64,000 bases of DNA, taken from positions 62,001 through 126,000 of the forward strand of contig NZ_CP007264.1 of assembly GCF_000585495.1 (NCBI RefSeq). The letters are read 5' to 3'. The notes below the pieces were generated by a model. That model saw nothing but the letters and a program-made list of their open reading frames with translations, was not told where the DNA came from and did not search any database. Below are positions 38,532-55,422 of this stretch, piece after piece. Every line of letters begins with the position of its first letter. Positions within the stretch are counted from its first letter, which is position 1. A program made the translations under genes and the position numbers. This DNA comes from Thermococcus nautili (GTDB lineage Archaea; Methanobacteriota_B; Thermococci; Thermococcales; Thermococcaceae).

Positions 38532-40850
38532 TCACAGCATCAAATCCTCCTTCGTCAGGTAGCCCTCCAGGTACAGCCCGCCGAGGAAGGCCTGGCCGAC
38601 GTTTATCCCGTTGTCCCCGCGCGGGACCTCCGTTGTAACGTGGAACTTAAGGCCCGACGCCTCAACGGCTTTCCTTACTGTCTTGACTATCAGCTCGTTG
38701 TAAGCGACACCACCGCTCATCACGACGTCCTTCACGCCGAACTCTTTAGCTTTCTCGATGGCAACCCCTGCAAAGGCCCTCGCGAGGGCCAGGTGAACCG
38801 AGTAAGCTATGTCCGCCGGGGAGGCCTTTTCAAGGACGTCCAGCGCCTGCACGAACAGCTCCTCGACCTTGAGGAGTTCTCCCTCGACCGGCACCTCGAA
38901 CTTGAGGTCGTTCTTGCCCTTCATCGCGAAGCTCTCGAGCTTCATCGCCGGCTCGCCCTCATAGTGCCTCCTGTAGGCCACGTTGAGCAGAACCGACAGG
39001 GCGTCGAGGACCCTTCCGGTTGACGAAGCGTAGGCGAGGTTTATCCCCTTGGCGAGCTGGTTCAGAGCAACTGAAAACTCCACCTCGCCGTACTTCAGGC
39101 TCTCCACGGCTTTTGGACAGCACTTCCTTATGACCCCTTCGAGCTCCTCGACGCTGTAAACCTTGCTCAGGATTCCCATCAGAGCCCTTAGCGGGTAGTA
39201 ACTCGCCAGGTCTCCGCCGGGAAGCGGGTAGTAGTCTATATGAGCTAACCTCTCCACGTCCTCGTAGCCGAGGTAGAGCACCTCGCCACCCCACGTGTTG
39301 CCATCGGTTCCGTAACCCACTCCATCAACGGCTATTCCTACAGCGGATTCGAGGTTCTTCTCGGCTAAGACACTCGCTATGTGGGCGTAGTGGTGCTGAA
39401 CTTGGAGTAGCTCCACGTTTAACTCGTTCGCAAGCTCCATTGCAAGCTTCGTCGTGTTGTAGGTCGGGTGGAGGTCGGCAACGATTAAATCGAACTCTTT
39501 AACCCGGAGAATCCTCTTGAAGTGCTCTATCGCTTCCCTCATGAACTCAAGAACCTCGACCTTTCCGGTGTTGCCGATGTACTGGCTCGGGTAGACCTTT
39601 CCGTTTTTAGCAACTCCAAAGGCGTTCATAAGCTCGGCTCCAACGGCCAGACCGCGGTAGCTGAAGGGAATCTCTATCGGGAGGGGCACAAAACCGCGGG
39701 AGCGCCTTATCACAGCCCTCTTCCCGTCAACGAAGCGAATCACGCTGTCGTCCGCGCGGTTGAGTATCCTCCTGTTGTGGAGCAGGAAGTAGTCAGCTAT
39801 ATCCTTCAGCTCCTCGAACGCCTTGTCGTTGTCCTTGACCATTGGCATTCCCGGGTAGTTCGCTGAGGTCATCACGTAAACCTTAGTCTTGCTCCAGTGG
39901 AAGAGGATGTAGTGCGTTCCAGCGTAGGGAAGCATGACGCCGATTGTGTGAAGCCCCGGCGCGAGGTTCTCGGGCAGGGGGAAGGGTTCCCTCTTGCGGA
40001 GCGTCACGATGGGTCTTCTATAGCTGGTCAGCTCCTCCTCTTCTTCGTTGCTCACGTAGGCGAAGCTTTTGACCGTCTCAAGCGAGTCAGCCATTATGGC
40101 GAAGGGCTTCTGGGGCCTGAAGGTTCTCCTCCTCAGCTCGGCAACGACGTCTTCCCTTGTCGCGTCGCACGCCAGATGGATTCCGCCGATTCCCTTGATG
40201 GCCACTATGTAGCCCTTATCAATCAGCTCCGCCGCCTTCCTCAGCGGGTCGCCCGTGATTTCCTCCCCGTCGCTCGTATAGAGACGGTAGCTCGGCCCGC
40301 AGACGGGACAGCAGACGGGTTCAGCATGGTAGCGCCTGTTCAGGGGGTCTTTGTACTCGCTCTCGCAGAAGTCGCACATCGGAAATTCCTTCATCGTCGT
40401 GTTCTCGCGGTCGTAGGGTAAATCCTCGATAATTGTGAACCTCGGCCCGCAGTTGGTGCAGACGATGAAGGGGTACATGTAGCGCTTGTTCGTCGGGTCG
40501 AAAAGTTCTCTCAGGCAGTCCTCGCAGATGGCTATGTCGGGCGGAATTATCGAGTCCCCACCGCTTCCGCCCTTCGAGCTCTTCTCGATGTAGAAGCGGT
40601 CGAACCCCTGGGGCGGGATTTCCTTCTTTTCGAGCCTGTCAACCCTTGCGAGGGGAGGTTTTTTCCGGTAGATGTCCTCTATGAATGCCTCTATATCCTC
40701 TTCACGGCCCTCTACGACTATCTCGACTCCGGCATCGCCGAGGTTCTTGACGTAGCCCCTCAGGTTGTGCTCGTGCGCTATTCTGTAAATGAACGGCCTG
40801 AATCCAACGGCCTGAACGATGCCCTGAACGTGAATACGGTAAGCCTTCAT
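38532..40850 (-). CDS. hypF: Carbamoyltransferase HypF
   Basis: A 772-residue enzyme that makes the HypE thiocarboxamide from carbamoyl phosphate. Domains are acylphosphatase (1-90, VQAVGFRPFIYRIA), two zinc fingers (CEDCLRE...CTNCGP, CDFCESEY...CCPVCGP; about 105-190), a YrdC-like domain (200-370) and a Kae1/TobZ-like carbamoyltransferase (about 390-772, with HHYAH and GGVAYNE). ATG 40850 follows GGTGGG. A TATA box and a SurR site lie upstream. Confidence 0.97.
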   Translation of the reverse strand: MKAYRIHVQGIVQAVGFRPFIYRIAHEHNLRGYVKNLGDAGVEIVVEGREEDIEAFIEDIYRKKPPLARVDRLEKKEIPPQGFDRFYIEKSSKGGSGGDSIIPPDIAICEDCLRELFDPTNKRYMYPFIVCTNCGPRFTIIEDLPYDRENTTMKEFPMCDFCESEYKDPLNRRYHAEPVCCPVCGPSYRLYTSDGEEITGDPLRKAAELIDKGYIVAIKGIGGIHLACDATREDVVAELRRRTFRPQKPFAIMADSLETVKSFAYVSNEEEEELTSYRRPIVTLRKREPFPLPENLAPGLHTIGVMLPYAGTHYILFHWSKTKVYVMTSANYPGMPMVKDNDKAFEELKDIADYFLLHNRRILNRADDSVIRFVDGKRAVIRRSRGFVPLPIEIPFSYRGLAVGAELMNAFGVAKNGKVYPSQYIGNTGKVEVLEFMREAIEHFKRILRVKEFDLIVADLHPTYNTTKLAMELANELNVELLQVQHHYAHIASVLAEKNLESAVGIAVDGVGYGTDGNTWGGEVLYLGYEDVERLAHIDYYPLPGGDLASYYPLRALMGILSKVYSVEELEGVIRKCCPKAVESLKYGEVEFSVALNQLAKGINLAYASSTGRVLDALSVLLNVAYRRHYEGEPAMKLESFAMKGKNDLKFEVPVEGELLKVEELFVQALDVLEKASPADIAYSVHLALARAFAGVAIEKAKEFGVKDVVMSGGVAYNELIVKTVRKAVEASGLKFHVTTEVPRGDNGINVGQAFLGGLYLEGYLTKEDLML

Positions 40851-40881
40851 GCCCACCCACCGGTTTTTCTCGGTATTTGGA

Positions 40882-40892
40882 GCCTTTATAGG
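40882..40892 (-). promoter_or_regulatory. TATA box of hypF
   Basis: On the minus strand CCTATAAAGGC lies 32-42 bases before ATG 40850, leaving a short leader with GGTGGGTGGG. Confidence 0.65.
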
Positions 40893-40893
40893 T

Positions 40894-40916
40894 TTTCAAA
40901 ACCAAAAGTTGAAAAC
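40894..40916 (-). promoter_or_regulatory. SurR site upstream of hypF
   Basis: The core at 40900-40916 (plus strand AACcaaaaGTTgaaAAC; minus strand GTTn3AACn5GTT) matches the SurR consensus exactly, and the outer half-site (40894-40902) lacks only one base. It lies directly upstream of the hypF TATA box, the activating position. SurR control of a hypF promoter is reported in Pyrococcus furiosus. Confidence 0.75.
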
Positions 40917-40942
40917 GAGAGTGGAGTTTTGAACCTTTGGTG

Positions 40943-42052
40943 TTAGAACAACGCCCCGTACTTGTAGAATATCGAGCACGTTCCCTCGTAGGACACCATG
41001 CACGGCCCTATTGGGTGCCTCGGCGTGCAGGTCTTTCCGAAGTGCGGGCACTGCGGTGGCAGGGCCAGTCCCCTGAGGATTGCCCCGCAGAGACAGCCCT
41101 TCTCGAGGTCGGGGAGCTTCGGGACTTCGGGGTCGTAGTAAGTCCTTATCTCAAGCTCCTTCCACTCCTTCCTCAGCTCGAGACCGCTCTTGGGCATGAC
41201 TCCGAGAGCGCGCCACCTCGCGTCCTTGACCTCGAAGAACTTGTCTATGAGCTTCTGGGCAACGACGTTGCCCTCGTATTTAACGGAGCGAGTGTACTCG
41301 TTGATTATCTTCGCCTCGCCGGCCTTCACCATTCTGACGAGGTAGAGTACCGCGAGGAGCATGTCAACCGGCTCGAAACCGGCTATAACCTGGGGAACGC
41401 CGTACTTCTCGGTTATCGGCTCCCAGCCCTTGACGCCTATTATAACCGAGACGTGGCCGGGGTCAATGAGCCCGTGGAAGCGCGTTCCCTGCTTTATAAG
41501 GACCTCAACCGCCGGTGGCGTGAGCCTGTGAACCGAGTAAATCTTGAAGTTCTCCAGCTCCTCCTGGGCAACAACGTTGAGCATTCCTGCGGCCGGGGCT
41601 GTGGTCGTCTCGAAGCCCGGTGAGAAGTGAACCACCGTCCTGTCGGGGTTCTCCTTGGCTATGCGGTAGGTGTCGTAGATTGAGTAAACGACCCTGATGT
41701 CGTAGCCCTCACTCTTCAAATCGGCGAAGCTTCCCCTCGGCGTCGGAATCTTGTACATGTCGCCGAAGGTCGTCATGATTATTCTGTCGCCCTCCTCGTA
41801 GGCCTGGCGCATTATCTCCATCATCTTGACGATGTCCTCGACCGGGGTTATACAGACCGGACAGCCCGGCCCGCTGAGTATCTTGACGTTCTCCGGGAGA
41901 AGAGAGCGGATTCCGGTTCTCGTCACGGTGTCCTCGTGGGTTCCGCAGACGTGCATGAAGCGGACCTCGTCGAGTCCTTTCGCCTCCTCGTGGATTTTCT
42001 TCACTATCTTCTGAGCGAGCTCCCTGTCCCTGAACTTGTCCAGCGTCCCCAT
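40943..42052 (-). CDS. hypD: Hydrogenase maturation protein HypD
   Basis: A 369-residue iron-sulfur protein. With HypC it is the scaffold on which Fe(CN)2CO is built. Conserved Cys motifs are FMHVCGTHEDT, SGPGCPVC and C-terminal CLCGAILRG...CPHFGKTCTP, including the 4Fe-4S ligands. ATG 42052 begins one base after the hypC stop and follows GGGTGA. The in-frame upstream start at 42079 would lie inside hypC. Confidence 0.95.
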   Translation of the reverse strand: MGTLDKFRDRELAQKIVKKIHEEAKGLDEVRFMHVCGTHEDTVTRTGIRSLLPENVKILSGPGCPVCITPVEDIVKMMEIMRQAYEEGDRIIMTTFGDMYKIPTPRGSFADLKSEGYDIRVVYSIYDTYRIAKENPDRTVVHFSPGFETTTAPAAGMLNVVAQEELENFKIYSVHRLTPPAVEVLIKQGTRFHGLIDPGHVSVIIGVKGWEPITEKYGVPQVIAGFEPVDMLLAVLYLVRMVKAGEAKIINEYTRSVKYEGNVVAQKLIDKFFEVKDARWRALGVMPKSGLELRKEWKELEIRTYYDPEVPKLPDLEKGCLCGAILRGLALPPQCPHFGKTCTPRHPIGPCMVSYEGTCSIFYKYGALF

Positions 42053-42053
42053 T

Positions 42054-42314
42054 TCAATCACCCGGGTAGTAGTAGCCACCTATCGCGTCCTTTTCGAGCT
42101 TGAAGACCTCATCCCAGGCCGAGAGGATTTCCTTCGCGGTCTCTTCATCAACGCGCTCGATTATGAAGCCGGTGTGAATCAGCACGTACTCGCCGGGCTT
42201 GACGTCGGGCATCAAATCAATCCTGGCCTCTCTCTTGACGCCTCCGAAGTCCACCCACGCGGTTCCCTTCTCCCTGTCAACCTCCAAAACCTTCGCAACG
42301 GTCGCCAGACACAT
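42054..42314 (-). CDS. hypC: HypC chaperone with intact N-terminal Cys
   Basis: An 86-residue chaperone that carries the iron ligand set from HypD to the hydrogenase large subunit. It starts MCLATVAKVLEV; Cys2 is the essential residue exposed after removal of Met. The OB-type core is GTAWVDFGGVKREARIDLMPDVKPGEYVLIHTGF. GGTGGGTGAAG precedes the ATG. The frame is open 36 codons further upstream, but this start gives the normal protein. Confidence 0.93.
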   Translation of the reverse strand: MCLATVAKVLEVDREKGTAWVDFGGVKREARIDLMPDVKPGEYVLIHTGFIIERVDEETAKEILSAWDEVFKLEKDAIGGYYYPGD

Positions 42315-42358
42315 GAGCTTCACCCACCCTGGATTCTCAAACGGGCTATTTAGCCTTT

Positions 42359-42613
42359 CTAAAACCTCCGGTTTGAAACCGTGAAGGTCAGCTCGAGCTT
42401 CCTTGAGCGGTGGTATGAGCACCTCGCGAGGGTCTCTTCCGCCTCGCTCCTGCTGACCTTTTCAAGAACTATGCCGTAGTAAATCTTCACGTAGTCCCCG
42501 GGTTTTACATCTTTTACAAAGTCCAGCCTTGCCTCCCTGAGCTGGCCCTCAACGTCAACTATCGCCCTTCCATCCCTGACTTCGATGACCTTTCCCGCGA
42601 GCATCAGGGCCAT
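42359..42613 (-). CDS. HypC/HupF-family protein lacking the N-terminal Cys
   Basis: An 84-residue protein with the HypC fold sequence (AGKVIEVRDGRAIVDVEGQLREARLDFVKDVKPGDYVKIYYGIVLEKVS), but it begins MALM instead of MC. The Cys2 needed for scaffold function is missing, and the C-terminus (CSYHRSRKLELTFTVSNRRF) is not typical. It may be a specialised or degenerated second HypC. It precedes hypC in the same operon. The promoter TATA (minus TCTATAAATC) is at 42641-42650. Confidence 0.75.
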   Translation of the reverse strand: MALMLAGKVIEVRDGRAIVDVEGQLREARLDFVKDVKPGDYVKIYYGIVLEKVSRSEAEETLARCSYHRSRKLELTFTVSNRRF

Positions 42614-42640
42614 GGTTATCAACCAAAGGTGATAGAAAAC

Positions 42641-42650
42641 GATTTATAGA
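42641..42650. promoter_or_regulatory. Shared TATA box for hypC-like operon and DUF302 gene
   Basis: GATTTATAGA reads as a TATA box on both strands. Minus-strand transcription would start about 8 bases before ATG 42613; plus-strand transcription would start within the TetR-type operator at 42659-42672. Confidence 0.55.
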
Positions 42651-42658
42651 CCTTTTCC

Positions 42659-42672
42659 TGACTAGTCAGTCA
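42659..42672 (+). promoter_or_regulatory. TetR-type operator O1
   Basis: TGACTAGTCAGTCA has the form TGAC-N6-GTCA. It overlaps the expected transcription start of the DUF302 gene. Thirteen of its fourteen bases are identical to the site before fdhA (43856-43869). Confidence 0.65.
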
Positions 42673-42682
42673 GGTGGTTCGA

Positions 42683-43060
42683 ATGGACATGGGCCAGATG
42701 ATTAACGCCGGAAAGAGCAAGTACTCCTACGAGGAGACCATAGGAAAGATTAAGGCCAAGGTCGAGGAGATTGGATGGAGCGTTGTTGCCGAGCACGACA
42801 TGGAGAAGAAAGTCGGCATTAGGGTTTACATCATTGAGCTCTGCAACAAGGAGTTCGCAAAGAAGGCCCTCGAAAAGCCCGAGAACCGCTGGGTTTCTGC
42901 TTTTATGCCATGTCGGATTGCAGTTGCTGAAAACCCGGATGGAGTTTATGTTTACGGTATGAACATGGGTGCCTTTGCCGGAATGGCTCCTGGGGAGCTC
43001 GGGGAGCTGTTTAAGAAGGTTTCTGAGGTTGATGAGGTCATCCTCAATTCCGTTCTCTAA
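42683..43060 (+). CDS. DUF302 family protein
   Basis: A 125-residue alpha/beta protein of the DUF302 family, whose structures form dimers of unknown role. The core is YSYEETIGKIKAKVEEIGWSVVAEHDM and the family's Cys region FMPCRIAVAE. I chose ATG 42683, preceded by GGTGG. The promoter carries the operator O1, so it is probably controlled by the TetR protein encoded next. Confidence 0.85.
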   Translation: MDMGQMINAGKSKYSYEETIGKIKAKVEEIGWSVVAEHDMEKKVGIRVYIIELCNKEFAKKALEKPENRWVSAFMPCRIAVAENPDGVYVYGMNMGAFAGMAPGELGELFKKVSEVDEVILNSVL

Positions 43061-43138
43061 GTTTAGCCTTTTTCGTTTTCTGCCGTCCCGGCGGAAAGTT
43101 TAAATTACCCTTCTGCACATAATTGTCCATGAAGTAAA

Positions 43139-43152
43139 TGACTGAGTGGTCA
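43139..43152 (+). promoter_or_regulatory. TetR-type operator O2, before tetR itself
   Basis: TGACTGAGTGGTCA also fits TGAC-N6-GTCA. It lies between the TATA-like GTTTAAATT (about 43098-43107) and ATG 43165, in the leader. This placement argues against starting the protein at ATG 43138. Confidence 0.55.
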
Positions 43153-43164
43153 GAAGTGGTGGGC

Positions 43165-43758
43165 ATGGCTACAAAGTCCCCTGGTAAAACCCGCGAGAAA
43201 CTCGTGTCCTCTGCAATGGAGCTCTTTGCGAAGAAGGGTTTCGATAAGACCACGGTAGACGAGATAGTCGCCAGGGCGGGAGTTGCCAAGGGTACATTCT
43301 ACCTCTACTTCAAGAGCAAAGACGACCTCATAAAGGAGCTTGCCTTTGAGGTCATGCCCATAATGGCCATGCCCTCGCTAAACGACCCCTACATAACGGT
43401 CTCGTTCCCAACCTTGGAGAGCTACCTCCTCCAGCTTGGGAAAGAGTTCCTTGAGTTCTATTCGGAGAGCTATCGGGCGGAAATCTTCTTCCACATGCTC
43501 TCAGTCCGGGAAAGAATGAAGAGCATAGATGAAATCTACCGTCAGTCCTGCTCGGAGCTTTTGAGAGAGGGTGCGAGGAGGATTACTGCCTACGTCAAGG
43601 TTGGTTTTGAAGATGCCCTCATAGCGTTTCAGGTCTTCATAGCGTCCCTCATGCACTACCTCCATGCGAAGGAATGTATCGGCCTCCCGGGTGACCATTA
43701 CTTAAAGCGGGCCGTTAACGTTGTTCTCAATCACCTTCGCCTCTCTGCGAGCGTGTAA
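43165..43758 (+). CDS. TetR/AcrR family regulator
   Basis: A 197-residue regulator. Residues 8-55 are the TetR DNA-binding domain (TREKLVSSAMELFAKKGFDKTTVDEIVARAGVAKGTFYLYFKSKDDL), with the classical helix-turn-helix. The rest is a helical ligand-binding and dimer domain. ATG 43165 follows GGTGGG. Operators of the same pattern precede this gene, DUF302 and fdhA, suggesting autoregulation and control of the formate dehydrogenase-hydrogenase genes. The inducer is unknown. Confidence 0.9.
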   Translation: MATKSPGKTREKLVSSAMELFAKKGFDKTTVDEIVARAGVAKGTFYLYFKSKDDLIKELAFEVMPIMAMPSLNDPYITVSFPTLESYLLQLGKEFLEFYSESYRAEIFFHMLSVRERMKSIDEIYRQSCSELLREGARRITAYVKVGFEDALIAFQVFIASLMHYLHAKECIGLPGDHYLKRAVNVVLNHLRLSASV

Positions 43759-43855
43759 CTGGGTGTATAGTTCTGTTTAACTAGCCCTATTGTGTAAAAT
43801 CCATTTGTTTCGACGACTGCAGAAAACTATTTAAGGTTTTGGCGACGAGCCTAAA

Positions 43856-43869
43856 TGACTGGTCAGTCA
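43856..43869 (+). promoter_or_regulatory. TetR-type operator O3, before fdhA
   Basis: TGACTGGTCAGTCA fits TGAC-N6-GTCA. It starts 25 bases after the TATA-like CTATTTAAGG (43827-43836), exactly at the expected transcription start of fdhA, a position where a bound repressor would block initiation. Confidence 0.68.
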
Positions 43870-43886
43870 TTAGAAGGGTGATAGCC

Positions 43887-45944
43887 ATGGCCGAGAAACT
43901 CGTGCCCGTAGTGTGCCCCTGGTGTTCAGTCGGCTGTCGCTTTTACGCGGTCAGCGTGAACGGCTACATCAGGAAGATTGAATTCGACTACGACCACCCC
44001 ACCGTCAACCGCGGAAAGCTCTGCCCGAAGGGCGTTGCCTCCTACCAGTTCATCAACAGCCCCAAGAGACTTAAGAAGCCCCTCAAGCGCGTTGGTGAGA
44101 AGGGAGAAGGAAAGTTCGAGGAGATAAGCTGGAGCGAAGCTTACAGGATAATCGCCGAGAAGATTAAGGAAATCAAGGAGACCTACGGTCCCGAGGCAAT
44201 AGCCTTCCTTGGAAGCGAGAAGATAACCTTCGAGGAGAACTACCTCGTCCACAAGCTGTCAAAGGCGATAGGAACCAACCACCTCGACTTCCCGGGAAGG
44301 TACTGCCAGTACTCCAACAGCCCCGCGAGAACGGCTGTCTTCGGTAGCGCCGCGGCGACTAATCCATTCGAGGATGTTGCCAAGGCCGAGTTCATTCTGA
44401 TTTGGGGTCACAACCCCGCTGAGACTGCACCTGTCTTCTTCGGTCAGTACATTGAGAAGGCCGTCCTCGACAACGGCGCCGAGATGGTCGTCATAGACCC
44501 GCGCGCGACGAGGGGCCACAAGTACGCGAGCATGCACCTCAAGCCCTACCCGGGAACCGACCTCGCGATAGCCCTGGCTATGCTCAACGTCGTCATAAGC
44601 GAGGAACTCTACGACAAGGAGTTCGTCAACGAGAGGACGACCGGCTTCGAGGAGCTCAAGGAGGCCGTTAAGGAGTACACACCGGAGTGGGCCGAGAAGA
44701 TAAGCGGCGTTCCCGCCGAGGACATAAGGAAAGTTGCGAGGCTCTTCGCCACCAAGAGAACTGCCCTCTTCGTCAACGAGGGCCTCAACCAGCACGTCAA
44801 CGGTTTCGAGTTCGCCCTCGCCCTCGCGAACCTCATCGCGATTACCGGCAACATCGGCAAGGAAGGCGTCTGGAGCGGTGTCTTCCCGGGCGCCCAGTGT
44901 GGATTCTGTGCCGCCATGACCGGCATCGCCCCGAACAAGCTCCCGACCGGCAAGCTCGTCACCGACGAGGCCGCGAGGGCCGAGCTTGAGAGGCTCTGGG
45001 GCTTCAAGATACCAGACTGGGTCGGCTTTGACCTGACAACTATGATACGCGAGATGGGCAACAAGATTAGGATGATGTACATCGTCGGCGGCAACATTGC
45101 CCGCTCTGCCCCGAACAGCAGGTGGGTCAGGGAACAGCTCAAGAAGCTCGACTTCCTCGTCGTGCAGGACATATTCCTCACCGAGACTGCTAAATACGCC
45201 GACATAGTTCTCCCGGCCGCGGCCTGGTTTGAGAAGACCGGAACGGCAATAAGCGCCGAGAGAAGGGTCCAGAGGAGCTACAAGGCCGCGAATCCACCTG
45301 GAGAAGCCAAGCCCGACTGGCTCATCCTGGTTGAGCTCGCCAAGGAGCTCGGCCTCGGCGAGTACTTCAAGTACGAGCACCCGGACGAGATTCTCAGGGA
45401 GATAAACAGCGTTATTCCAATATTCAAGGGCGCAACGCCAGAATACCTCGCGGAGCACCCTGAGGGATGCTTCTTCCCGTGCACCGAGCCCGGCGAGGGA
45501 ACGAAGGTCCTCTTCAAGAACGGCTTCAAGACGAGCGATGGAAAGGCCCACCTCCAGCCTGTTAAGTGGCGCGAGCCGCCGGAGATGCCCGATGAGGAGT
45601 ACCCGCTCTGGCTCACCAACTTCAGGCTCGTCGGCCACTGGCACACGGGAACCATGTCCTTCGAGAGCCCGAGCCTTGAGAAGCGCTGGCCAGAGGAGTA
45701 CGTCATGATTAACCCGAAGGACGCCGAGAAGTACGGCATAAGGAGCGGGGACCTCGTCAAGGTCGAGACCAGGCGCGGAAGCGTTCTCGTCAGGGCAGAG
45801 GTTACTGACCACGTCAGGGAGGGCGTTATCGCGATGCCGAACCACTGGAACATCAACGTTCTGACCCTTGAGACCATCCACGAGAAGACCAAGATGGCCG
45901 AGCTCAAGGCCGTCGCGGCCAGGATTAGGAAGGTGGAGGAGTGA
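43887..45944 (+). CDS. fdhA: Formate dehydrogenase-like alpha subunit
   Basis: A 685-residue molybdopterin (Mo or W) oxidoreductase. A 4Fe-4S cluster is bound by Cys10, Cys13, Cys17 and Cys46. Cys140 (GRYCQYSNSP) occupies the position of selenocysteine in E. coli FdhF, but the next residue is Gln rather than the usual catalytic His. The C-terminal MopB-binding domain (TRRGSVLVRAEVTDHVREGVI) completes the enzyme. Context with fdhB and a hydrogenase indicates formate oxidation coupled to hydrogen evolution. ATG 43887 follows GGGTGA. Confidence 0.88.
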   Translation: MAEKLVPVVCPWCSVGCRFYAVSVNGYIRKIEFDYDHPTVNRGKLCPKGVASYQFINSPKRLKKPLKRVGEKGEGKFEEISWSEAYRIIAEKIKEIKETYGPEAIAFLGSEKITFEENYLVHKLSKAIGTNHLDFPGRYCQYSNSPARTAVFGSAAATNPFEDVAKAEFILIWGHNPAETAPVFFGQYIEKAVLDNGAEMVVIDPRATRGHKYASMHLKPYPGTDLAIALAMLNVVISEELYDKEFVNERTTGFEELKEAVKEYTPEWAEKISGVPAEDIRKVARLFATKRTALFVNEGLNQHVNGFEFALALANLIAITGNIGKEGVWSGVFPGAQCGFCAAMTGIAPNKLPTGKLVTDEAARAELERLWGFKIPDWVGFDLTTMIREMGNKIRMMYIVGGNIARSAPNSRWVREQLKKLDFLVVQDIFLTETAKYADIVLPAAAWFEKTGTAISAERRVQRSYKAANPPGEAKPDWLILVELAKELGLGEYFKYEHPDEILREINSVIPIFKGATPEYLAEHPEGCFFPCTEPGEGTKVLFKNGFKTSDGKAHLQPVKWREPPEMPDEEYPLWLTNFRLVGHWHTGTMSFESPSLEKRWPEEYVMINPKDAEKYGIRSGDLVKVETRRGSVLVRAEVTDHVREGVIAMPNHWNINVLTLETIHEKTKMAELKAVAARIRKVEE

Positions 45945-45954
45945 GGTGGTTGGA

Positions 45955-46452
45955 ATGAGCAAGAAGATTTTCCTCGACTATAAGCGCTGTATCGGCTGTA
46001 AGGCCTGTGAAGTGGCCTGTGAAATGACTCATGGCGAGGCAAGGATAAGGGTCTTCGAGTTCCCCGACCTCTTCACCGTTCCCTTCAACTGCCGCCACTG
46101 TGAAAAGGCTCCATGCGAAAACGTCTGTCCGACTGGGGCGCTCTTCAGGGACGAGGACGGCGCGGTTGCCTTTGACCCGCTCAAGTGTATCGGCTGTCTC
46201 ATGTGTGCCGTTGCCTGTCCATTTGGAATTCCAAAGCTCGACGAGGAGAACAAGATTATGGATAAGTGCGACCTCTGTTCCGACAGAAGAGCGGAAGGAA
46301 AGCTTCCAGCGTGTGTCTCGGCCTGTCCAACGGAGGCCCTGCTCTACGGTGACATGAACGAGGTGCTTTGGAACAGGGAAGGAAAGATAGTGGCCAACTT
46401 GAAGAGCTCCGCCGAGAAGGGGGAGGGAGAAAAGGCCTACATCGTCCTCTGA
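45955..46452 (+). CDS. fdhB: Four-cluster ferredoxin subunit (FdhB/HycB-like)
   Basis: A 165-residue electron carrier with sixteen Cys in four groups: CIGCKACEVAC, CRHCEKAPCENVCP, CIGCLMCAVACP and CDLC...CVSACP, enough for four 4Fe-4S clusters, as in HycB/CooF proteins. It should pass electrons from FdhA to the hydrogenase. ATG 45955 follows GAGGTGG, ten bases after the fdhA stop. Confidence 0.92.
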   Translation: MSKKIFLDYKRCIGCKACEVACEMTHGEARIRVFEFPDLFTVPFNCRHCEKAPCENVCPTGALFRDEDGAVAFDPLKCIGCLMCAVACPFGIPKLDEENKIMDKCDLCSDRRAEGKLPACVSACPTEALLYGDMNEVLWNREGKIVANLKSSAEKGEGEKAYIVL

Positions 46453-46455
46453 CCT

Positions 46456-46463
46456 TATTTTTT
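46456..46463 (+). terminator. T-run after fdhB, possible terminator
   Basis: ATTTTTTG (within TTATTTTTTGC) directly follows the fdhB stop codon. It could end or attenuate fdhAB transcription, followed by a separate promoter for the hydrogenase genes. Confidence 0.3.
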
Positions 46464-46471
46464 GCAACGAA

Positions 46472-46488
46472 AACCTAGGGTTAAAAAC
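46472..46488 (+). promoter_or_regulatory. SurR site upstream of the hydrogenase gene group
   Basis: AACctaggGTTaaaAAC matches the SurR core AACn5GTTn3AAC exactly. It lies 15 bases before ATG 46503, in the only sizeable gap of the fdh-hydrogenase cluster. Its overlap with the TATA-like GGTTAAAAAC makes it unclear whether binding would activate or repress. Confidence 0.58.
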
Positions 46489-46502
46489 AAGGGGTGATGG
46501 TG

Positions 46503-47882
46503 ATGATTGAACTGGTGCTAATCTCAGCGCTCATCCCCTTCGTGCTCCTGATACTCTGGAAGCTCGAGGGGAAGACAGCCGACCTAATAGCGGGCGCGAT
46601 TCTCGGCGTTTCCCTGCTCCTCAACGGTATGGCCCTCTATGACTTCTTCTCAAAGGGCTCTGACAAGGTTTATCACACCGCCTACGTTACCACCGGCAAC
46701 CTTGGGGAGGTCTTTGGAATAACCGCCGATACCGCCTCAATGCTCATGGGGCTCGTCTCGATACTAATCGCGTTTCTCATGGCAGTCTACGCGAGCAAGT
46801 TCCTTGACTCGGGGAAGGGGAAGTTCTACGCGCTCTTCGGCCTGCTCACCGGCGCGAGCATGGTTTTCATCTACTCGACCAACCTTGTCCAGTTCGCCGT
46901 TGCGCTTGAGCTCATGGCGATAGCGATGCTTTGCCTCGTGGAGCTCGGTAATGCCAAGACTGACGCCCTCAAGGCCTTCCTCGTCCTCAACGTTGGAGTG
47001 CTCCTCATCCTCGGAGCGGTTGCCGTTCTCGGCACGGGACAGGACCTTACCAAGGCCACTTATGACGGCACGGCGTTCCTCCTGCTAATCTTCGCGGCCT
47101 TCATGATGAGCTCACAGTTCCCGTTCTACTCCTGGCTTCCGGACTCAACAGCCTCTCCTATTCCCGCGAGTGCCTATGTGCACTCCGCCTCGATTGTCCC
47201 GCTCGGCGCCTACATGCTCTTCAGGGTTATCCAGTACATGAAGCCGAACGACGACTACTTCTGGCTCCTTGGAGGTCTGACCGTTGCCCTCATAATCCTG
47301 ATGATGATTTACTACCCGCTCCAGCGCGATGCAAAGAGGCTCATAGCCTACTCCACCATAGCCCAGACCGGCGTTGCATACATAACCCTCGCCTACGCCC
47401 TGCTCGGCCACGTCGCGGGAATCCAGATAGCCCTCTATCAGGTCGTCAACCACGCGGTCGTCAAGGCCCTCGCCTTCGCCTCCGTCGGAGGACTCGCCTT
47501 AGCATACGGCACCACCGACCTCAAGCTCATCAAGGGCATGAGGAGAACCGTCCCCTGGACGAGCATAGCATGGTTCATGAGCTTCCTCGGACTGGCCGGT
47601 GTCCTTCCGCTCGGCCTGTTCTTCAGCAAGGCCTTCACAATCATGAGCACCAGACACGCCAAGGGAATCGCCTCGTGGCTCTTCCCGGCAGTGGTTCTCA
47701 TAGACGCGGCAATATTCCTCATCGTGGTCCTCCTCTGGTTCAGGGAGATATTCTTCGGCGAGGGTGAGGCAAAGAAAGAGCCAAAGGTCATCGTTGCAGT
47801 GCTCATCGTCCTCATAATCGTCGGCATAATAATGCCCTGGGTCAGCCTCGACGTTGTGATGAAGATAGGCTTTGCGGGGTGA
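46503..47882 (+). CDS. Antiporter-like membrane subunit (HyfB/NuoN family)
   Basis: A 459-residue, roughly fourteen-helix subunit of the NuoL/M/N family. The proton-channel core includes FPFYSWLPDSTASPIPASAYVHSASIVPLGAY and KRLIAYSTIAQTGVAY, with the buried Lys and Glu of the family. It should pump ions driven by hydrogenase electron flow. ATG 46503 follows GGTGATG; earlier in-frame starts at 46494 and 46497 overlap that site. Confidence 0.88.
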   Translation: MIELVLISALIPFVLLILWKLEGKTADLIAGAILGVSLLLNGMALYDFFSKGSDKVYHTAYVTTGNLGEVFGITADTASMLMGLVSILIAFLMAVYASKFLDSGKGKFYALFGLLTGASMVFIYSTNLVQFAVALELMAIAMLCLVELGNAKTDALKAFLVLNVGVLLILGAVAVLGTGQDLTKATYDGTAFLLLIFAAFMMSSQFPFYSWLPDSTASPIPASAYVHSASIVPLGAYMLFRVIQYMKPNDDYFWLLGGLTVALIILMMIYYPLQRDAKRLIAYSTIAQTGVAYITLAYALLGHVAGIQIALYQVVNHAVVKALAFASVGGLALAYGTTDLKLIKGMRRTVPWTSIAWFMSFLGLAGVLPLGLFFSKAFTIMSTRHAKGIASWLFPAVVLIDAAIFLIVVLLWFREIFFGEGEAKKEPKVIVAVLIVLIIVGIIMPWVSLDVVMKIGFAG

Positions 47883-47888
47883 TGTGAG

Positions 47889-49880
47889 ATGATACTCGAA
47901 TACGCGATTGGGGCGTTCATCCTCGGTGGTCTCGTCGGCCTGATTAGGGACTACAAGGCCACGGTTAAGGCGTCAAGCTTCATGGCGTTCCTCGGTTCAC
48001 TCGCCCTCCTCTGGCAGGTTTATGCCGTCTACACCAACGGCCCCGTTTCGGGAAGCCTCTTTGGAATCCCCGTCAAGGTGGACGACCTCTCAATAATCTT
48101 CCTCCTCATAATCGGCCTCGTTGGAGCGGCCGCTTCCCTCTTCGCGATAAACTACATGGAGCTCTTTGAGAAGGTCGGCAAGGGCTGGGTCTACGCGATA
48201 GCCTACAACACCTTCCTCGCGAGTATGGCCCTCGTCGTTACCGCGGACAGCATGGAGTACTTTGTCATGGGCTGGGAGCTCATGACCCTCAGCTCGTTCA
48301 TACTGGTCTTCTTCAGCGAGAGGCCGAGGGACACCGACGCGAGCGTCAAGTACTACATCACCATGCACTTCCTCGACACGATTCCGCTCTTCCTCGCCCT
48401 GGGAACCGCCTACTCCCTCGTCGGCGGCTTCGACGAGCTCACCTTTGAGAACATAGCGAGCGCTATGGCAACCGCATCCACGAGCACCAAGCTGGTCTTC
48501 ACGGCGCTCCTCATGATAGCCTTCATGACCAAGTCGGGAATGATACCCTTCCAGTTCTGGGTTGCCGAGACCTACCGCGCGGCGCCGACCAGCGTTTCAG
48601 CCGTCATGGCCGGTGCGATGGAGAAGGTTGCCCTCTACGGTCTCATCGCCCTCATCTGGAGAACCGTCGGAACGAGCTACGGCCTCGGCCTCTTCGTTGC
48701 CGTGATAGGTGCCATAACCCTCACCGTTGGAACCCTCTACGCACTCAGAGAGACGAACGCCAAGAGACTCCTCGCCTACCACTCGATAGGCCAGATGGGC
48801 TACATATGGCTCGGCCTTGGAATAGGAATGGCACTCATCCCGAAGGGTGGCTTCCTCGGCGCCGTTGGAGCCCTCGGTGCCTTCGCGGGACTCTTCCACG
48901 CCCTCAACCACGCGATATTCAAGGCCTCGCTCTTCCTCTCTGCCGGAGCCGTTGAGTACAGAACCGGAACCGTTGACCTCAACGAGCTCGGCGGTCTCGG
49001 CAAGACCATGAAGGTAACCGCCTTGGCGGCGCTCTTCGCCTCGCTCGCCATAAGCGGTGTTCCGCCCTTCAACGGCTTCATCAGCAAGTGGCTCATCTAC
49101 GTTTCCGGTTATTACTCGAACAGCTACGTTTTGGCCCTCGGCGCAGTACTGGCTGCCTTCATCAGCGCCGCTACGCTTGCATCGTTCATCAAGTTCTACG
49201 GAACCCAGTTCGGCGGTGAGATGAAGCGCTACGAGAACGTTCAGGAGGTCCCGGCCGGAATGCTCGTTGGCCAGTGGATTCTCGCTGGTCTAACGCTCCT
49301 CATCGGCGTCTTCCCGGGAACCGTCACCGGAATCCTCAACGTCTTCAACGCCCCGATAAGCGATGGCGTTTACAAGATAGGCTTCCAGTCCGTGGTGTTC
49401 TCGCCGGTGCTCTTCGTGATAGTCCTCGGAATACTGACCTTCGGACTCTACCTCGTCTTCAAGCCCGAGTACAAGGAGGCCAAGCCCTGGGACTGCGGTT
49501 CAACAGAGATAGACGAGGACGAGTACAGGATAAACGCGGAGGGCTACTACATCAAGTACGAGGAGAAGATAGGCTCGTTCTACCACCTCGGCGACTGGTT
49601 CTACCGCGTTGGAGCCGGAATAATCCGCTACATCGTCAGGGCCTACCTCTGGATGGCGAGCTACTTCACCAAGATAGTCGACACCCCGTACACCAGGATA
49701 GAGACCCTCGACGACCTCCGCGAGAGGGAAATCATGCACATAGACGAGGAGGTCTTCAAGCCACTCATCAGGTTCCTCAACATAGCCAGGGACGTCATCC
49801 CGGGAATAAGGCTCGGCACCTTCATCGTCATAGCCCTCGTTGTCGTTGGGGCTATCGTGGGACTGCTAATAGTCATGTGA
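47889..49880 (+). CDS. Antiporter-like membrane subunit (HyfB/NuoL family)
   Basis: A 663-residue NuoL/M-type subunit with about fourteen core helices (MTKSGMIPFQFWVAETYRAAPTSVSAVMAGAMEKVALYG, KRLLAYHSIGQMGYIW) plus a long C-terminal extension (about residues 520-663) containing a hydrophilic stretch and a last helix. It begins six bases after the previous stop and is part of the membrane arm of the hydrogenase. Confidence 0.88.
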   Translation: MILEYAIGAFILGGLVGLIRDYKATVKASSFMAFLGSLALLWQVYAVYTNGPVSGSLFGIPVKVDDLSIIFLLIIGLVGAAASLFAINYMELFEKVGKGWVYAIAYNTFLASMALVVTADSMEYFVMGWELMTLSSFILVFFSERPRDTDASVKYYITMHFLDTIPLFLALGTAYSLVGGFDELTFENIASAMATASTSTKLVFTALLMIAFMTKSGMIPFQFWVAETYRAAPTSVSAVMAGAMEKVALYGLIALIWRTVGTSYGLGLFVAVIGAITLTVGTLYALRETNAKRLLAYHSIGQMGYIWLGLGIGMALIPKGGFLGAVGALGAFAGLFHALNHAIFKASLFLSAGAVEYRTGTVDLNELGGLGKTMKVTALAALFASLAISGVPPFNGFISKWLIYVSGYYSNSYVLALGAVLAAFISAATLASFIKFYGTQFGGEMKRYENVQEVPAGMLVGQWILAGLTLLIGVFPGTVTGILNVFNAPISDGVYKIGFQSVVFSPVLFVIVLGILTFGLYLVFKPEYKEAKPWDCGSTEIDEDEYRINAEGYYIKYEEKIGSFYHLGDWFYRVGAGIIRYIVRAYLWMASYFTKIVDTPYTRIETLDDLREREIMHIDEEVFKPLIRFLNIARDVIPGIRLGTFIVIALVVVGAIVGLLIVM

Positions 49881-49890
49881 GGTGATGAAA

Positions 49891-50808
49891 ATGGAGACGA
49901 CGGCCAAGCTCGCCTTCAGCTTTATCGGTGTGCTCCTGACCTTCCTCCTGCCCCCTTACCTCGACGGAATAGCGAGAAGGGTTAAGGCAAGGCTCCAGTA
50001 CAGGCGCGGGCCACCGCTCATGCAGACCTGGTACGACCTCAACAAGCTCTTCAGCCTTCCGTCGGTTAAGCCGACCAAGAGCGCGCTCTTCACCTGGGCA
50101 CCTTTCCTTGCCCTCGCCTCGGCCGTAATCGGCGCTCTCCTCCTTCCCTACGGAAACGTGGTGCCCATTGACATAGGCTTCAACTTAGTGGTGTTCTTCT
50201 ACGTGATACTGATGGTCAGCGTGTTCCTCATGCTCGCTGGTCTGAGCGTCCAGAACGCCTTCAGCCACCTCGGTTCGGCCAGGGAGATGCAGATAATCCT
50301 CACCGTCGAGCCCCTCATAGCCGTCCTCTACGGAGTCCTCGCTTACAACGCGGGCTCGCTCAACATAGCTGACATCATCTCGAACCTTCACCTAACGCCC
50401 TCGCTCGTCATGACCTACGTCCTGCTCGCCTACGCGCTCTACGTCGAGAGTGGCTTCATGCCCTTCGACATAGCGGAGGCGGAGCAGGAGGTTATAGGCG
50501 GTCCGCTCAGCGAGTACAGCGGAAGGCTCCTCGGAGTCTTCTACTACGCCATCTACATCAAGCGCTTCGCCCTGCTGTGGTTCTTCGTCAGCCTGCTCGT
50601 CCTCCCGTGGGTCGGGCCGATAGACACGACTCTCAAGGCGGCAGAGGTGCTCGCGGTTCAGTTCCTCCTGACGGTGGCTTTATATCCGGTCATAGCCTCA
50701 CTCGAAGCAACGAACGCGAGGCTCAGGATTGACCACGTTGTTAAGATGAACACGAGGGCTTTCTTTGCGGGAATAATTATCCTCGCCATAGCGTTCATGG
50801 GGTGGTGA
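49891..50808 (+). CDS. NuoH-like membrane anchor subunit (HycD/HyfC)
   Basis: A 305-residue, eight-helix subunit linking the peripheral hydrogenase to the membrane arm. Family motifs are RRVKARLQYRRGPPLMQTWYDL and FDIAEAEQEVIGGPLSEYSG. ATG 49891 follows GGTGA; GTG 49882 is less likely. The stop overlaps the next ribosome-binding region. Confidence 0.9.
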   Translation: METTAKLAFSFIGVLLTFLLPPYLDGIARRVKARLQYRRGPPLMQTWYDLNKLFSLPSVKPTKSALFTWAPFLALASAVIGALLLPYGNVVPIDIGFNLVVFFYVILMVSVFLMLAGLSVQNAFSHLGSAREMQIILTVEPLIAVLYGVLAYNAGSLNIADIISNLHLTPSLVMTYVLLAYALYVESGFMPFDIAEAEQEVIGGPLSEYSGRLLGVFYYAIYIKRFALLWFFVSLLVLPWVGPIDTTLKAAEVLAVQFLLTVALYPVIASLEATNARLRIDHVVKMNTRAFFAGIIILAIAFMGW

Positions 50809-50810
50809 AT

Positions 50811-52610
50811 ATGGTAACGACGAGGGATTTGGAGGCTCACTTCGAGTTTGAGTGCAGGGCCTGTGAAAAGGGCCAGTGCAGAAAGGCGGACGTTAACACA
50901 ATCCTTGCCGAGAGAAAGGGCCTCAAGGAGTTTTACGAGGCCTTCAAGGAGCACATAAGGGAATGCAAGAGGATGAGCTACGGTCAGTACCAGTTCGTGA
51001 TTGACAGGGAAGTCCTTCCGGAGGCGGTGCTCTGGTGGCACAACCACCCTGAGTTCAAGGAGACCCACCTCTCAACCGCCGTTGGAACCGACGAGAGGCC
51101 CCTCAACGGCCACTTCGTCTACATGCCCTTCCTCAACGTCCAGGTTGAGCCTGAGAACATGGACGAGAACTACTACGTCTTCCTCAGGGCGTACCTCCCG
51201 GCCGACGACCCGAGCTTCCCGAGCGTCGCGGCAAAGCTTCCGGCCGCGCTCTGGATAGAGAGAGAAGTTAAAGACCTGCTCGGTTTCAACCCCGTTGGCC
51301 ACCCGGACCCGAGGAGGCTCATATTGCCTGAGGACTGGCCGGAGGGAGTTTACCCGCTCAGGAAGGACATGGACTACAGGCACTCACCGATGGCCGAGAC
51401 CAAGACCGAGTTCAGGGAGAAGCCTGAGGGAACGACGCTCGTCCCGATGGGCCCGGTTCATATGGGTATCGAGGAGCCGGCCCACTTCAGGCTCTTCGTC
51501 AAGGGCGAGGAGATAGTTGACGTGGACTATCGCGGTTTCTACTCCCACAGGGGAATCGAGAAGACCGGTGAGGGCAGGCTTACCTACAACCAGGTTCTCT
51601 TCCTCGCCGAGAGAATCTGTGGAATCTGTGGTTACCAGCACTCGGTAAGCTACGCGATGGCCGTTGAGCGCCTGGCCGACGTCGAAATCCCTGACAGGGC
51701 ACGCTACATAAGAACGCTGATGCTCGAACTGGAGAGGATTCACAACCACCTGCTCTGGGTCGGCATTGCCGCTCACCTCGTCGGCTACGACACCGGCTTC
51801 ATGCACGCGTGGAGAATCCGTGAGCCCGTCATGTGGCTCGTCGAGCGCTTAACCGGAAACAGGAAGCAGTACGGAATGAACATCGTCGGTGGAGTTAGGA
51901 GGGACATCCTTGACTACCGCAAGGAAGAGATACTCAAGGTGGTCAAGCAGATACGCGAGGAAACCAAGAAGTTCCTCGACATAGCTCTGAACACCAACAC
52001 CTTCATCAAGCGCGCTGAGGGAGTCGGAATACTGCCCTACAAGGTTGCCAAGGCCTACTCCGTCCTCGGACCGACTGCAAGGGCCAGCGGAAGGAGGATT
52101 GACACGAGGCTTGACCAGGCAACGAAGACTGCCATGGCCTACAACGAGGTTGACTTCAAGGTTCCGGTCTACAAGGAGGGCGACGTCCTCGCGAGGGTTC
52201 TCGTCAGGATGGACGAGCTCTTCGAGAGCCTCTGGATAGTGGAACAGCTCATTGACCAGATGCCTGGCGGAGACATTATGGTTCCAATCGGCGACCTGCC
52301 CGAGTACGAGGAGGCCCTTGGATTCACCGAGGCCCACCGCGGTGAAGTGGTTCACTACGTCATGACCGGCGAGAAGAACAAGGTCTACCGCTGGAAGGTG
52401 AGGGCGCCGACCTACAACAACCTGCCGGCTGTGCCGGAGATGCTCAAGGGCTACCACGTAGCCGATGCACCGCTCATCATAGCGAGCATCGACCCGTGCT
52501 ACTCCTGTACCGAGAGGGTTCAGTTCGTTGACGTCCAGACCGGCAAGGTGAAGGTTCTCACCGAGGCCGAGTTCAACGAGCTCTCAATCAAGTACAGGGG
52601 GGTGTTCTGA
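50811..52610 (+). CDS. [NiFe] hydrogenase large subunit, NuoC-NuoD fusion (HycE type)
   Basis: A 599-residue subunit. Residues 1-190 are a NuoC-like domain, and about 200-599 the catalytic domain. The nickel-iron ligands are present: Cys270 and Cys273 (RICGICGYQHS) and Cys563 and Cys566 (DPCYSCTER). It is therefore a true hydrogen-producing group 4 subunit, not a complex I relative that has lost the site. The chain extends about 33 residues past the last ligands. Early Cys residues (CRACEKGQC) near residue 15 are unusual. The stop overlaps the next start (TGATG). Confidence 0.94.
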   Translation: MVTTRDLEAHFEFECRACEKGQCRKADVNTILAERKGLKEFYEAFKEHIRECKRMSYGQYQFVIDREVLPEAVLWWHNHPEFKETHLSTAVGTDERPLNGHFVYMPFLNVQVEPENMDENYYVFLRAYLPADDPSFPSVAAKLPAALWIEREVKDLLGFNPVGHPDPRRLILPEDWPEGVYPLRKDMDYRHSPMAETKTEFREKPEGTTLVPMGPVHMGIEEPAHFRLFVKGEEIVDVDYRGFYSHRGIEKTGEGRLTYNQVLFLAERICGICGYQHSVSYAMAVERLADVEIPDRARYIRTLMLELERIHNHLLWVGIAAHLVGYDTGFMHAWRIREPVMWLVERLTGNRKQYGMNIVGGVRRDILDYRKEEILKVVKQIREETKKFLDIALNTNTFIKRAEGVGILPYKVAKAYSVLGPTARASGRRIDTRLDQATKTAMAYNEVDFKVPVYKEGDVLARVLVRMDELFESLWIVEQLIDQMPGGDIMVPIGDLPEYEEALGFTEAHRGEVVHYVMTGEKNKVYRWKVRAPTYNNLPAVPEMLKGYHVADAPLIIASIDPCYSCTERVQFVDVQTGKVKVLTEAEFNELSIKYRGVF

Positions 52611-53215
52611 TGGCCGAGAGCCTCTCCTACACCGAGAAGCTCAAGAAGTGGAACCGCTTCGAGGTCGAGAAGTTCAGCAAGAAGGCCCCTGTCACCACTC
52701 CCTATCCTTTTATTGACATCGAGAAGCCACCCGAGTACCGCGGAATCCCGCACATCAACCCCGAGAAGTGCATAGGCTGTGGTGCCTGTGTCAACGCCTG
52801 CCCGCCCGATGCCCTAATCCTCGAGTGGGACAAGGAGCACGGTGTTAAGAGGCTCACCTTCAACGCGGCGCGCTGTATAAGGTGCCACCGCTGTGTGGAG
52901 GTTTGCCCGACCGGCGCGATGGAACCGACGAACATCTTCGAGATAGCGACCGACAACAAGGAAGATTTGGTAGAGGTCGTCGAGCACAAGCTCGCTTACT
53001 GCGAGGAGTGTGGCGAATACCTTGACTTCACCGAGAGGCAGATTGAGTACGTTAGGAACATCCTGCCGAAGGAAATCTTTGAGATGTACGCCCTTGAAGA
53101 CAGAATCGGCCTGACCCAGGAGGCAAAGATGCGCAAGACCGTCGAGAAGCTCAGGGAGACCGAGGGAATTCCAGTCTCGGCCTTCATGCTCGTGAAGAAG
53201 GGGGGTGAGGAGTGA
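52610..53215 (+). CDS. NuoI-like ferredoxin subunit (HycF type)
   Basis: A 201-residue subunit with two 4Fe-4S motifs, CIGCGACVNACP and CIRCHRCVEVCP, and a C-terminal helical tail containing CEECG. It carries electrons to the NuoB-like subunit. It overlaps both neighbours by single TGATG junctions, indicating tight translational coupling. Confidence 0.92.
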   Translation: MAESLSYTEKLKKWNRFEVEKFSKKAPVTTPYPFIDIEKPPEYRGIPHINPEKCIGCGACVNACPPDALILEWDKEHGVKRLTFNAARCIRCHRCVEVCPTGAMEPTNIFEIATDNKEDLVEVVEHKLAYCEECGEYLDFTERQIEYVRNILPKEIFEMYALEDRIGLTQEAKMRKTVEKLRETEGIPVSAFMLVKKGGEE

Positions 53216-54045
53216 TGGGAAGAAGGCTCAAGTCCGTCTGGGTCTATCACGTTGATGCTGGTTCATGTAACGGCTGTGACATCGAGGTGCTCGACGTCCT
53301 CAGCCCGTACTACGACCTTGAGAGGCTCGGTATCAAGGTCATCCCCAACCCGAGGCACGCCGATGCCCTCTTCATCACCGGCCCGCTCACGAGGCAGACG
53401 AGGGTAATGCTCAAGAAGGCCTACGAGGCCATGCCACCGAAGCCGAGGATAGTGGTCGCTATAGGAACCTGCGCCTCAAGCGGTGGAATCTTCTACAACA
53501 GCTACGCCCTATACAACACCTCCCCCCAGCGCGGAAGGGACAGACTCAGGAGCGGTGGACCGGAGATGATAGTGCCGATAGACATGTACATCCCCGGCTG
53601 TCCGCCGAGCCCGGAGGAGATACTCTACGGCGTCGCCCAACTGCTCGGTATCAAGGAGAAGAAGATGAAGGGCGAATACTGGGTCGCACTCCCGCCGAAG
53701 GAGACGCCCAAGGCCGAGAACGAGGTCGAGTTCAGAATCCCCGACAGGCCGATACCGCTCCGCTACTGGCTTACCCTTCGCGAGGAGCTCAGGCGCGTCG
53801 TTGGCTACTATGACAGGGAGGCCGTCCTTGAGGACTTCATGGCCCTCGTCGAGAAGGCCTTCGAGAGCGACAACCCGAGGGAGAAGCTCCACGACCTCGT
53901 CACCGGCTACTTCCTCAAGGAGAAGGACTCCAGGATAAAGGTCGCCATGCGCTTCCTCGAAAACGAGTTCTGGAAGCTGTACGACGAGTACCACTCCCTC
54001 GGAGAGGCAATTAAGAGGAAGTACCCCGTGACGGCGGGTGTCTGA
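53215..54045 (+). CDS. [NiFe] hydrogenase small subunit (HycG/NuoB type)
   Basis: A 276-residue subunit holding the proximal 4Fe-4S cluster: CNGCD, GTCASSGG and PGCPPSPEE. It has a long C-terminal extension (about 110 residues, REELRRVVGYYDREAVLEDFMALVEK) beyond the usual core. ATG 53215 overlaps the previous stop; GTG 53212 is less likely. Confidence 0.93.
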   Translation: MGRRLKSVWVYHVDAGSCNGCDIEVLDVLSPYYDLERLGIKVIPNPRHADALFITGPLTRQTRVMLKKAYEAMPPKPRIVVAIGTCASSGGIFYNSYALYNTSPQRGRDRLRSGGPEMIVPIDMYIPGCPPSPEEILYGVAQLLGIKEKKMKGEYWVALPPKETPKAENEVEFRIPDRPIPLRYWLTLREELRRVVGYYDREAVLEDFMALVEKAFESDNPREKLHDLVTGYFLKEKDSRIKVAMRFLENEFWKLYDEYHSLGEAIKRKYPVTAGV

Positions 54046-54403: not shown

Positions 54404-54850
54404 ATGAACGAGGAGACGCTGAAGAAGGCCAAGGAGGAGCTGATTCAAAGGGTAAAAGACTTCTACGGCGACAACCTTCTCTCTATAATCTTCTACGGAA
54501 GGCATCTCCGCGACCCGAGCTTTCCGGAGATAGACGTGGTCGTAATCATCGACAAACCCTACGACCCGGTGAAGATGAACCGCATGGCGGACTTCGTGGA
54601 GAACATCCGCGACCCGATAGAGGAGAAGTACGGCTACCACGTCTCCTTCGAGCTCTACACGCGCGAGGAAGCGGAGAACTTCCACTCCGGCTACCTTGAC
54701 GTCGTGGTTAACTACGAGGTCGCCTACGATAAGGATAACTACTTCCAGAACCTCATGAACGACATGCTGAACCCCAAGAAGGCGATGGACTACGTGAAGT
54801 ACATCAGCACCATCGAGTACATCCAGCTGGACGAGGAGAGGGAGGAATGA
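54404..54850 (+). CDS. Nucleotidyltransferase-fold protein with altered motif
   Basis: A 148-residue protein resembling polymerase-beta-like minimal nucleotidyltransferases ([23 protein letters not shown]). The canonical GS is replaced by GR, and the DxD pattern by EID, so catalysis may be altered or lost. GGAGGTGG precedes the ATG, and its stop overlaps mobA in ATGA. Confidence 0.6.
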
Positions 54851-55422
54851 TTGGGGCAGTTCTGGCCGGCGGAAGGGGCAGGCGCTTCGGGGGCGACAAG
54901 CTACTCTACAAAATCAACGGCAGGCCTTTGATTCTTTACACCATCGAGAGGCTTGAAACCGCCAGAAGAATCGACGAGATAATCTTAGTTGCCTCGAAGG
55001 ACAACGCGGAAAAACTTGAGAGGCTCGGCTACCGCGTGGTCGTTGATGAGCTCCTTATAGGCCCGATGGGGGGCGTTTACACCGCCTTGAACCTCGGCGA
55101 TGCCTTTGTCGTTGCCGGCGACATGCCCCTACTCATCCCCGAGTTCATTGATTACATAATTGAAGAATTCAAGAATAGCGGAAAAATAGCCTGCGTGCCG
55201 AGGTGGGAGAACGGCTACCTCGAACCCCTTCACGCCGCTTATTCCAGGGCTTTCCGCGAAATCCTTGAGGAGAAGATAAAAAGTGGAAACTACGCCCTCA
55301 ACAGGGCAATCCGCGAGGCTAATCCCTGCTACCTCCCGATAGAGTCTCTCCCCGGGGAGTGGCGCGAGAGCTTCTTCAACGTGAACACGAGGGAGGATTT
55401 GGGGAGGATACAAAAGGGATAA
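54847..55422 (+). CDS. mobA: Molybdenum cofactor guanylyltransferase
   Basis: A 191-residue enzyme that joins GMP to molybdopterin to make the bis-MGD-type cofactor needed by FdhA. The nucleotide motif is [16 protein letters not shown] (residues 5-20), then [10 protein letters not shown] and the metal-binding VAGDMPLL. A MobA gene just after the Fdh-hydrogenase cluster fits cofactor supply. Confidence 0.88.

Follow-up and report, generated by a model that had tools for sequence, protein, structure and literature searches.

Three short inverted repeats lie before neighbouring DUF302, tetR and fdhA genes of Thermococcus nautili, raising the question of whether they mark a local regulon and, if so, which protein reads them and to what effect. 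The initial annotation of this DNA proposed that the TetR-family protein binds the repeats, then described as TGAC-N6-GTCA, and represses its own gene, the DUF302 gene and the formate dehydrogenase-hydrogenase genes. The relevant features are given here in coordinates of the window, the whole 64,000-nucleotide stretch that was analysed.

38532 to 42615, minus strand: hypC-hypC-hypD-hypF, hydrogenase maturation genes divergent from DUF302, their start 44 nt from operator 1
42643 to 42648, plus strand: TTTATA, TATA box of the DUF302 promoter, at a conserved spacing to operator 1
42659 to 42672, plus strand: operator 1, TGACTAGTCAGTCA, DUF302 promoter; full dyad 42657-42674, three half-sites
42683 to 43060, plus strand: gene for a DUF302 protein of 125 amino acids, ATG at 42683 (PF03625, 31.5 bits against a cut-off of 23)
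43099 to 43106, plus strand: TTTAAATT, TATA-like box of tetR
43139 to 43152, plus strand: operator 2, TGACTGAGTGGTCA, tetR promoter; two half-sites
43165 to 43758, plus strand: tetR, TetR-family regulator of 197 amino acids (PF00440), from the proposed corrected start ATG 43165
43828 to 43834, plus strand: TATTTAA, TATA box of fdhA
43856 to 43869, plus strand: operator 3, TGACTGGTCAGTCA, fdhA promoter; full dyad 43854-43871, three half-sites
43887 to 45944, plus strand: fdhA, formate dehydrogenase alpha subunit (NCBIfam TIGR01591, above cut-off), first gene of the operon
45955 to 54045, plus strand: fdhB and membrane [NiFe]-hydrogenase genes (open reading frames, Pfam), presumed to share the fdhA operon

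The three 14-mers occupy the coordinates and strand first reported for them (42659, 43139 and 43856), and operators 1 and 3 do differ at 1 of 14 bases. With their flanks these two read CCTGACT-AGTC-AGTCAGG and AATGACT-GGTC-AGTCATT, respectively, each with perfect outer arms of 7 + 7 nucleotides; operator 2 is a weaker dyad than either. The loose motif TGAC-N6-GTCA proved unspecific: the window has seven occurrences, where shuffles gave an expectation of 0.67 (largest shuffled count 3). Four of the matches are outside the tetR/DUF302/fdhA system, and the tightened pattern TGACYNNNNRGTCA was used instead. This pattern is found at four places in the 1,976,356-base genome, three of which are operators 1-3; the fourth (G000:1543530) has no fdh gene nearby and no TATA box just upstream. 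By a crude estimate, the chance that three of four random genomic places would fall within 1.25 kb is ~5e-6. An abundance of equally good matches elsewhere had been named as what would speak against the proposal; the refined pattern yields only that one further place, and the genome scan with the motif found no wider regulon in T. nautili.

All three operators lie downstream of a TATA box, as had been described, at distances (start to start) of 16 nt for operator 1 and 28 nt for operator 3; operator 2, at 40 nt, is further off than the original description of sites just past the box would have it. Start mapping in T. onnurineus places the TATA box at -30 to -20 (PMC5316973), and relative to the starts estimated for T. 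nautili, operator 1 would cover about -13 to +1, operator 3 about -2 to +12, and operator 2 about +10 to +23. At these estimated positions, a bound repressor could block RNA polymerase either at recruitment or at escape.

Downstream of fdhA follow fdhB, antiporter-like and NADHdh-like genes, large and small hydrogenase subunits and an Fe-S protein (open reading frames, Pfam), a gene set that, judged by its content, is a formate hydrogenlyase. The locus has tetR upstream and no formate transporter among the genes read. It is a candidate for Group 4, the type of Holden and Sistu in which tetR precedes an operon that has no such transporter and is not beside other hydrogenase operons. Two other full-length FdhA paralogues in the T. 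nautili genome are without an operator site. Published data on TK2074-TK2076 of T. kodakarensis were set aside, as they concern a different fdh locus, beside mbh. Soon after the formate hydrogenlyase (fhl) operon, at 54847-55422, lies a gene for a MobA-like NTP transferase, whose product possibly serves the Mo/W cofactor of FdhA.

The predicted fold of the DUF302 protein matches the DUF302 structures 1q9u, 1j3m and 7tj1. Its close orthologues occur exclusively in TetR-bearing genomes (20/20) and adjoin tetR in the loci read. Read on the minus strand, the TATA box of the DUF302 gene becomes TATAAA, so the segment 42640-42675 may be shared with the divergent hyp operon, which begins with hypC; operator 1 would in that case lie immediately upstream of the promoter for hyp. 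The DUF302 gene has been deleted from at least four loci (L018, L019, L029, L030) that keep its TATA box and operator 1, perhaps because the segment serves hypC-hypD-hypF or because the deletion happened recently. In a distant group of loci, tetR too is flanked by hyp genes; to count the hyp operon as a further TetR target would be speculation. A SurR-like GTTn3AAC sequence, GTTATCAAC (42615-42623), lies across the start of hypC, upstream of the TATA box for DUF302, and is retained in most related loci.

Comparison across 94 genomes of the Thermococcaceae ties the operators to the regulator. With a criterion of E < 1e-30, TetR orthologues were detected in 39/94 genomes, 26 of them at 66-100% identity, five at 42-44% and eight at 33-38%. 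The strict pattern TGACYRGTCRGTCA occurs in 40 genomes, namely all 39 with TetR and G012, so that one of the 55 genomes without TetR carries it, upstream of an unrelated membrane-protein gene. The nominal Fisher p for this association, ~1e-25, is overstated given kinship and linkage: the species are related, and regulator and operators are usually inherited as one cassette, which makes their co-occurrence not fully independent. Positional evidence accompanies these counts. At the fdhA promoter the operator lies 30-36 nt from the start and is present in 39/39 loci; at the DUF302 promoter it is exact in 19/20, the remaining locus having one mismatch; and at the tetR promoter an exact site is found in 33/39 and is absent in 6/39. 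In the compared fdhA, DUF302 and tetR promoters the operators always lie just downstream of the TATA box, and TATA-anchored scans of the 94 genomes returned mainly these same three promoters, with scattered singles. The pattern is retained even with TetR proteins at 33-44% identity, and in G004, where tetR and fdhA are 15 kb apart, both genes keep operator sites. FdhA relatives at ≥59% identity occur only in TetR-bearing genomes, except in G061, in which fdhA runs off a 3.3-kb contig.

Taken with the genome-wide specificity of the refined motif, this 39-genome co-occurrence, the fixed promoter positions and the unlinked tetR of G004 strongly support a predicted local regulon in which TetR controls DUF302, tetR and fdhA, much as the annotation had drawn it. 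We consider it highly probable, from sequence comparison, that TetR binds the operators and that DUF302, tetR and the fdhAB-hydrogenase genes form an ordinary local regulon under its repression. That the neighbouring TetR is the binder, that its binding is repressive and that a ligand acts as inducer are points that we infer, repression from the position of the operators. In the proposed mechanism, a one-component TetR-family repressor would bind as a dimer to TGACYNNNNRGTCA dyads over or just past the transcription starts of DUF302, tetR and the fdhAB-[NiFe]-hydrogenase (Group 4 formate hydrogenlyase) operon, and the bound protein would block the transcription machinery. A small ligand in the C-terminal domain of TetR would release the repressor, upon which the enzyme operon, DUF302 and tetR would rise together, and self-repression of tetR would reset the system.

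Sites resembling the operators also occur at other promoters. A dyad, TGACCAACTGGTCA or TGACCGACTGGTCA, lies just past a TATA box and before a gene for a secreted or membrane protein in five loci (L054-L057, L053). Dyads of this family are present in genomes without TetR as well (G047, G012), they account for the strict site in TetR-less G012, and on this distribution they are probably operators of another regulator. In five genomes, TGACYNNNNRGTCA sites lie between CODH-cluster-like genes (L058, L060-L063), comprising ferredoxin-like and nucleotide-binding maturation reading frames; as a similar site exists in TetR-less G030, these were left unassigned. A second fdhA copy in G038 (60% identity; L059, G038:C5:8731) has TGACTAGTTAGTCA downstream of its TATA box and is a possible further TetR target.

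The existence of such look-alike sites bears on the rival reading that another regulator, either a second TetR or a global factor, binds the sites and that the neighbouring tetR is a bystander. The TGACCAACTGGTCA dyads at an unrelated gene indicate that similar motifs may have a different reader, and the T. nautili genome does encode a second, weakly similar TetR. However, strict fdhA sites occur only in genomes with a TetR of the neighbouring type, tetR has one of the sites in its own promoter, and the unlinked tetR of G004 keeps its site; we therefore regard a bystander role as improbable. A further possibility keeps the same TetR and operators and makes formate the direct inducer, in keeping with a target that is a formate enzyme and with the annotation's choice of formate and related compounds for a ligand screen. 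This we consider slightly less probable still. TetR pockets usually hold larger ligands, which we count against formate. In T. paralvinellae the expression of Group 4 fhl is lower on formate, and Group 4 operons are without a formate transporter (PMC10025317, excerpt), so that formate is unlikely as the inducing signal of TetR. The fdh-mhy operon of T. litoralis, which may lie outside Group 4 and may lack the operator, likewise counts against formate, rising with peptides and, on peptides, falling with sulfur (PMC2432063). The inverted repeats, being near mRNA starts, could instead form RNA hairpins in 5′ leaders, but their stems would be 4-5 bp and most of operator 1 precedes the transcription start as estimated and would thus be outside the RNA, and we give this reading very little credence. 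Chance dyads, for which the four other loose-motif matches in the window might be cited, are the least credible explanation of all, since 39 genomes from three genera keep the sites at the same promoter positions.

The regulator predicted to act at these sites belongs to the TetR/AcrR family, whose members bind as dimers to palindromic operators overlapping their target promoters; conserved dyads lie at the corresponding places. Its TetR_N helix-turn-helix domain is well recognized (PF00440, 70.6 bits against a cut-off of 24), and the model is an all-helical two-domain fold (pLDDT 92.4) matched by TetR folds in the PDB at a TM of about 0.6-0.75. Its start should be ATG 43165 (MATKSPGKTRE) rather than 43138, since several homologues have in-frame stops upstream and the alignment with divergent ones begins only around this point; a start at 43138 overlaps operator 2. 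In an alignment of 38 proteins, residues 9-58, which form the DNA-binding region, are 64-100% identical to those of T. nautili TetR, and the AKGTFY stretch in the recognition region is invariant; in the equivalent region of the Sulfolobus acidocaldarius regulator FadRSa, a glycine and aromatic residues contact DNA (PMC6449355). Identity over residues 60-197 of the same proteins falls to as low as 22%. This combination suggests that DNA specificity has been kept while the sensor has diverged. Because sequence and fold searches matched generic TetR relatives only, no ligand can be named. A FadR-type identity (FadRSa, Bacillus FadR) was rejected: only the N-terminal part aligns well, the targets are fdh genes, and the score against the FadR NCBIfam model is 42.9 bits against a cut-off of 200.

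The operators themselves appear to be of two kinds. A third half-site, an extra GTCA within the dyad (TGAC in a few reversed copies), is present in 39/39 fdhA sites and 19/19 exact DUF302 sites and in 0/33 tetR sites, a distribution that suggests two operator classes in the TetR circuit. In G004 and four distant loci the fdhA site is preceded by a further operator, one with two half-sites. Compared with tetR, the fdhA and DUF302 operators are probably bound more strongly, or by two dimers, through their third half-site. FadRSa shows two binding stoichiometries depending on the operator (PMC6449355), which makes a difference in affinity or stoichiometry between the TetR operator classes plausible. 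It is conceivable, although we incline to doubt it, that these features form a two-class operator code across genera, with TGACYRGTCAGTCA at the enzymes and two half-sites at tetR giving differing repression, in which the sensor has been replaced or has diverged under an unchanged operator, coupling the same promoter to different signals. The constrained DNA-binding half and diverged sensor half make this regulator a usable case for studying input change in archaeal one-component regulators.

Among known systems, the closest is the Group 4 fhl operon of Thermococci, upstream of which Holden and Sistu (2023) report a TetR/AcrR gene whose mechanism of regulation is given as unknown (PMC10025317, excerpt). 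The arrangement is alike, with tetR ~350 nt upstream, in the same direction, and no formate transporter in the fhl operon, whereas the excerpted account describes no operator, DUF302 or autoregulation (PMC10025317). No report of a TetR operator for this system was found among open-licence papers, and the operator assignment for a Group 4-type fhl TetR is new. With a defined operator, regulator and target list, regulation of this type of fhl becomes directly testable, and altering TetR or its operators could raise hydrogen production in laboratory strains of Thermococcus. SurR governs further hydrogen-producing operons of these organisms, but through the motif GTTn3AAC, which is reported absent from Group 2-4 promoters (PMC10025317, excerpt) and was not found near the fdhA TATA box. 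FhlA of Escherichia coli also controls formate hydrogenlyase, but as a formate-binding activator rather than a TetR repressor (PMC11291172, excerpt). FadRSa differs in controlling fatty acid metabolism, with no formate or hydrogenase targets (PMC6449355), and its sensor domain has no detectable kinship to that of T. nautili TetR beyond the fold. In its mode of action, it is the experimentally demonstrated archaeal precedent for a TetR repressor: a family member with a related DNA-binding domain, it recognizes a semi-palindromic operator and has few sites in the genome, its own promoter among them (PMC6449355).
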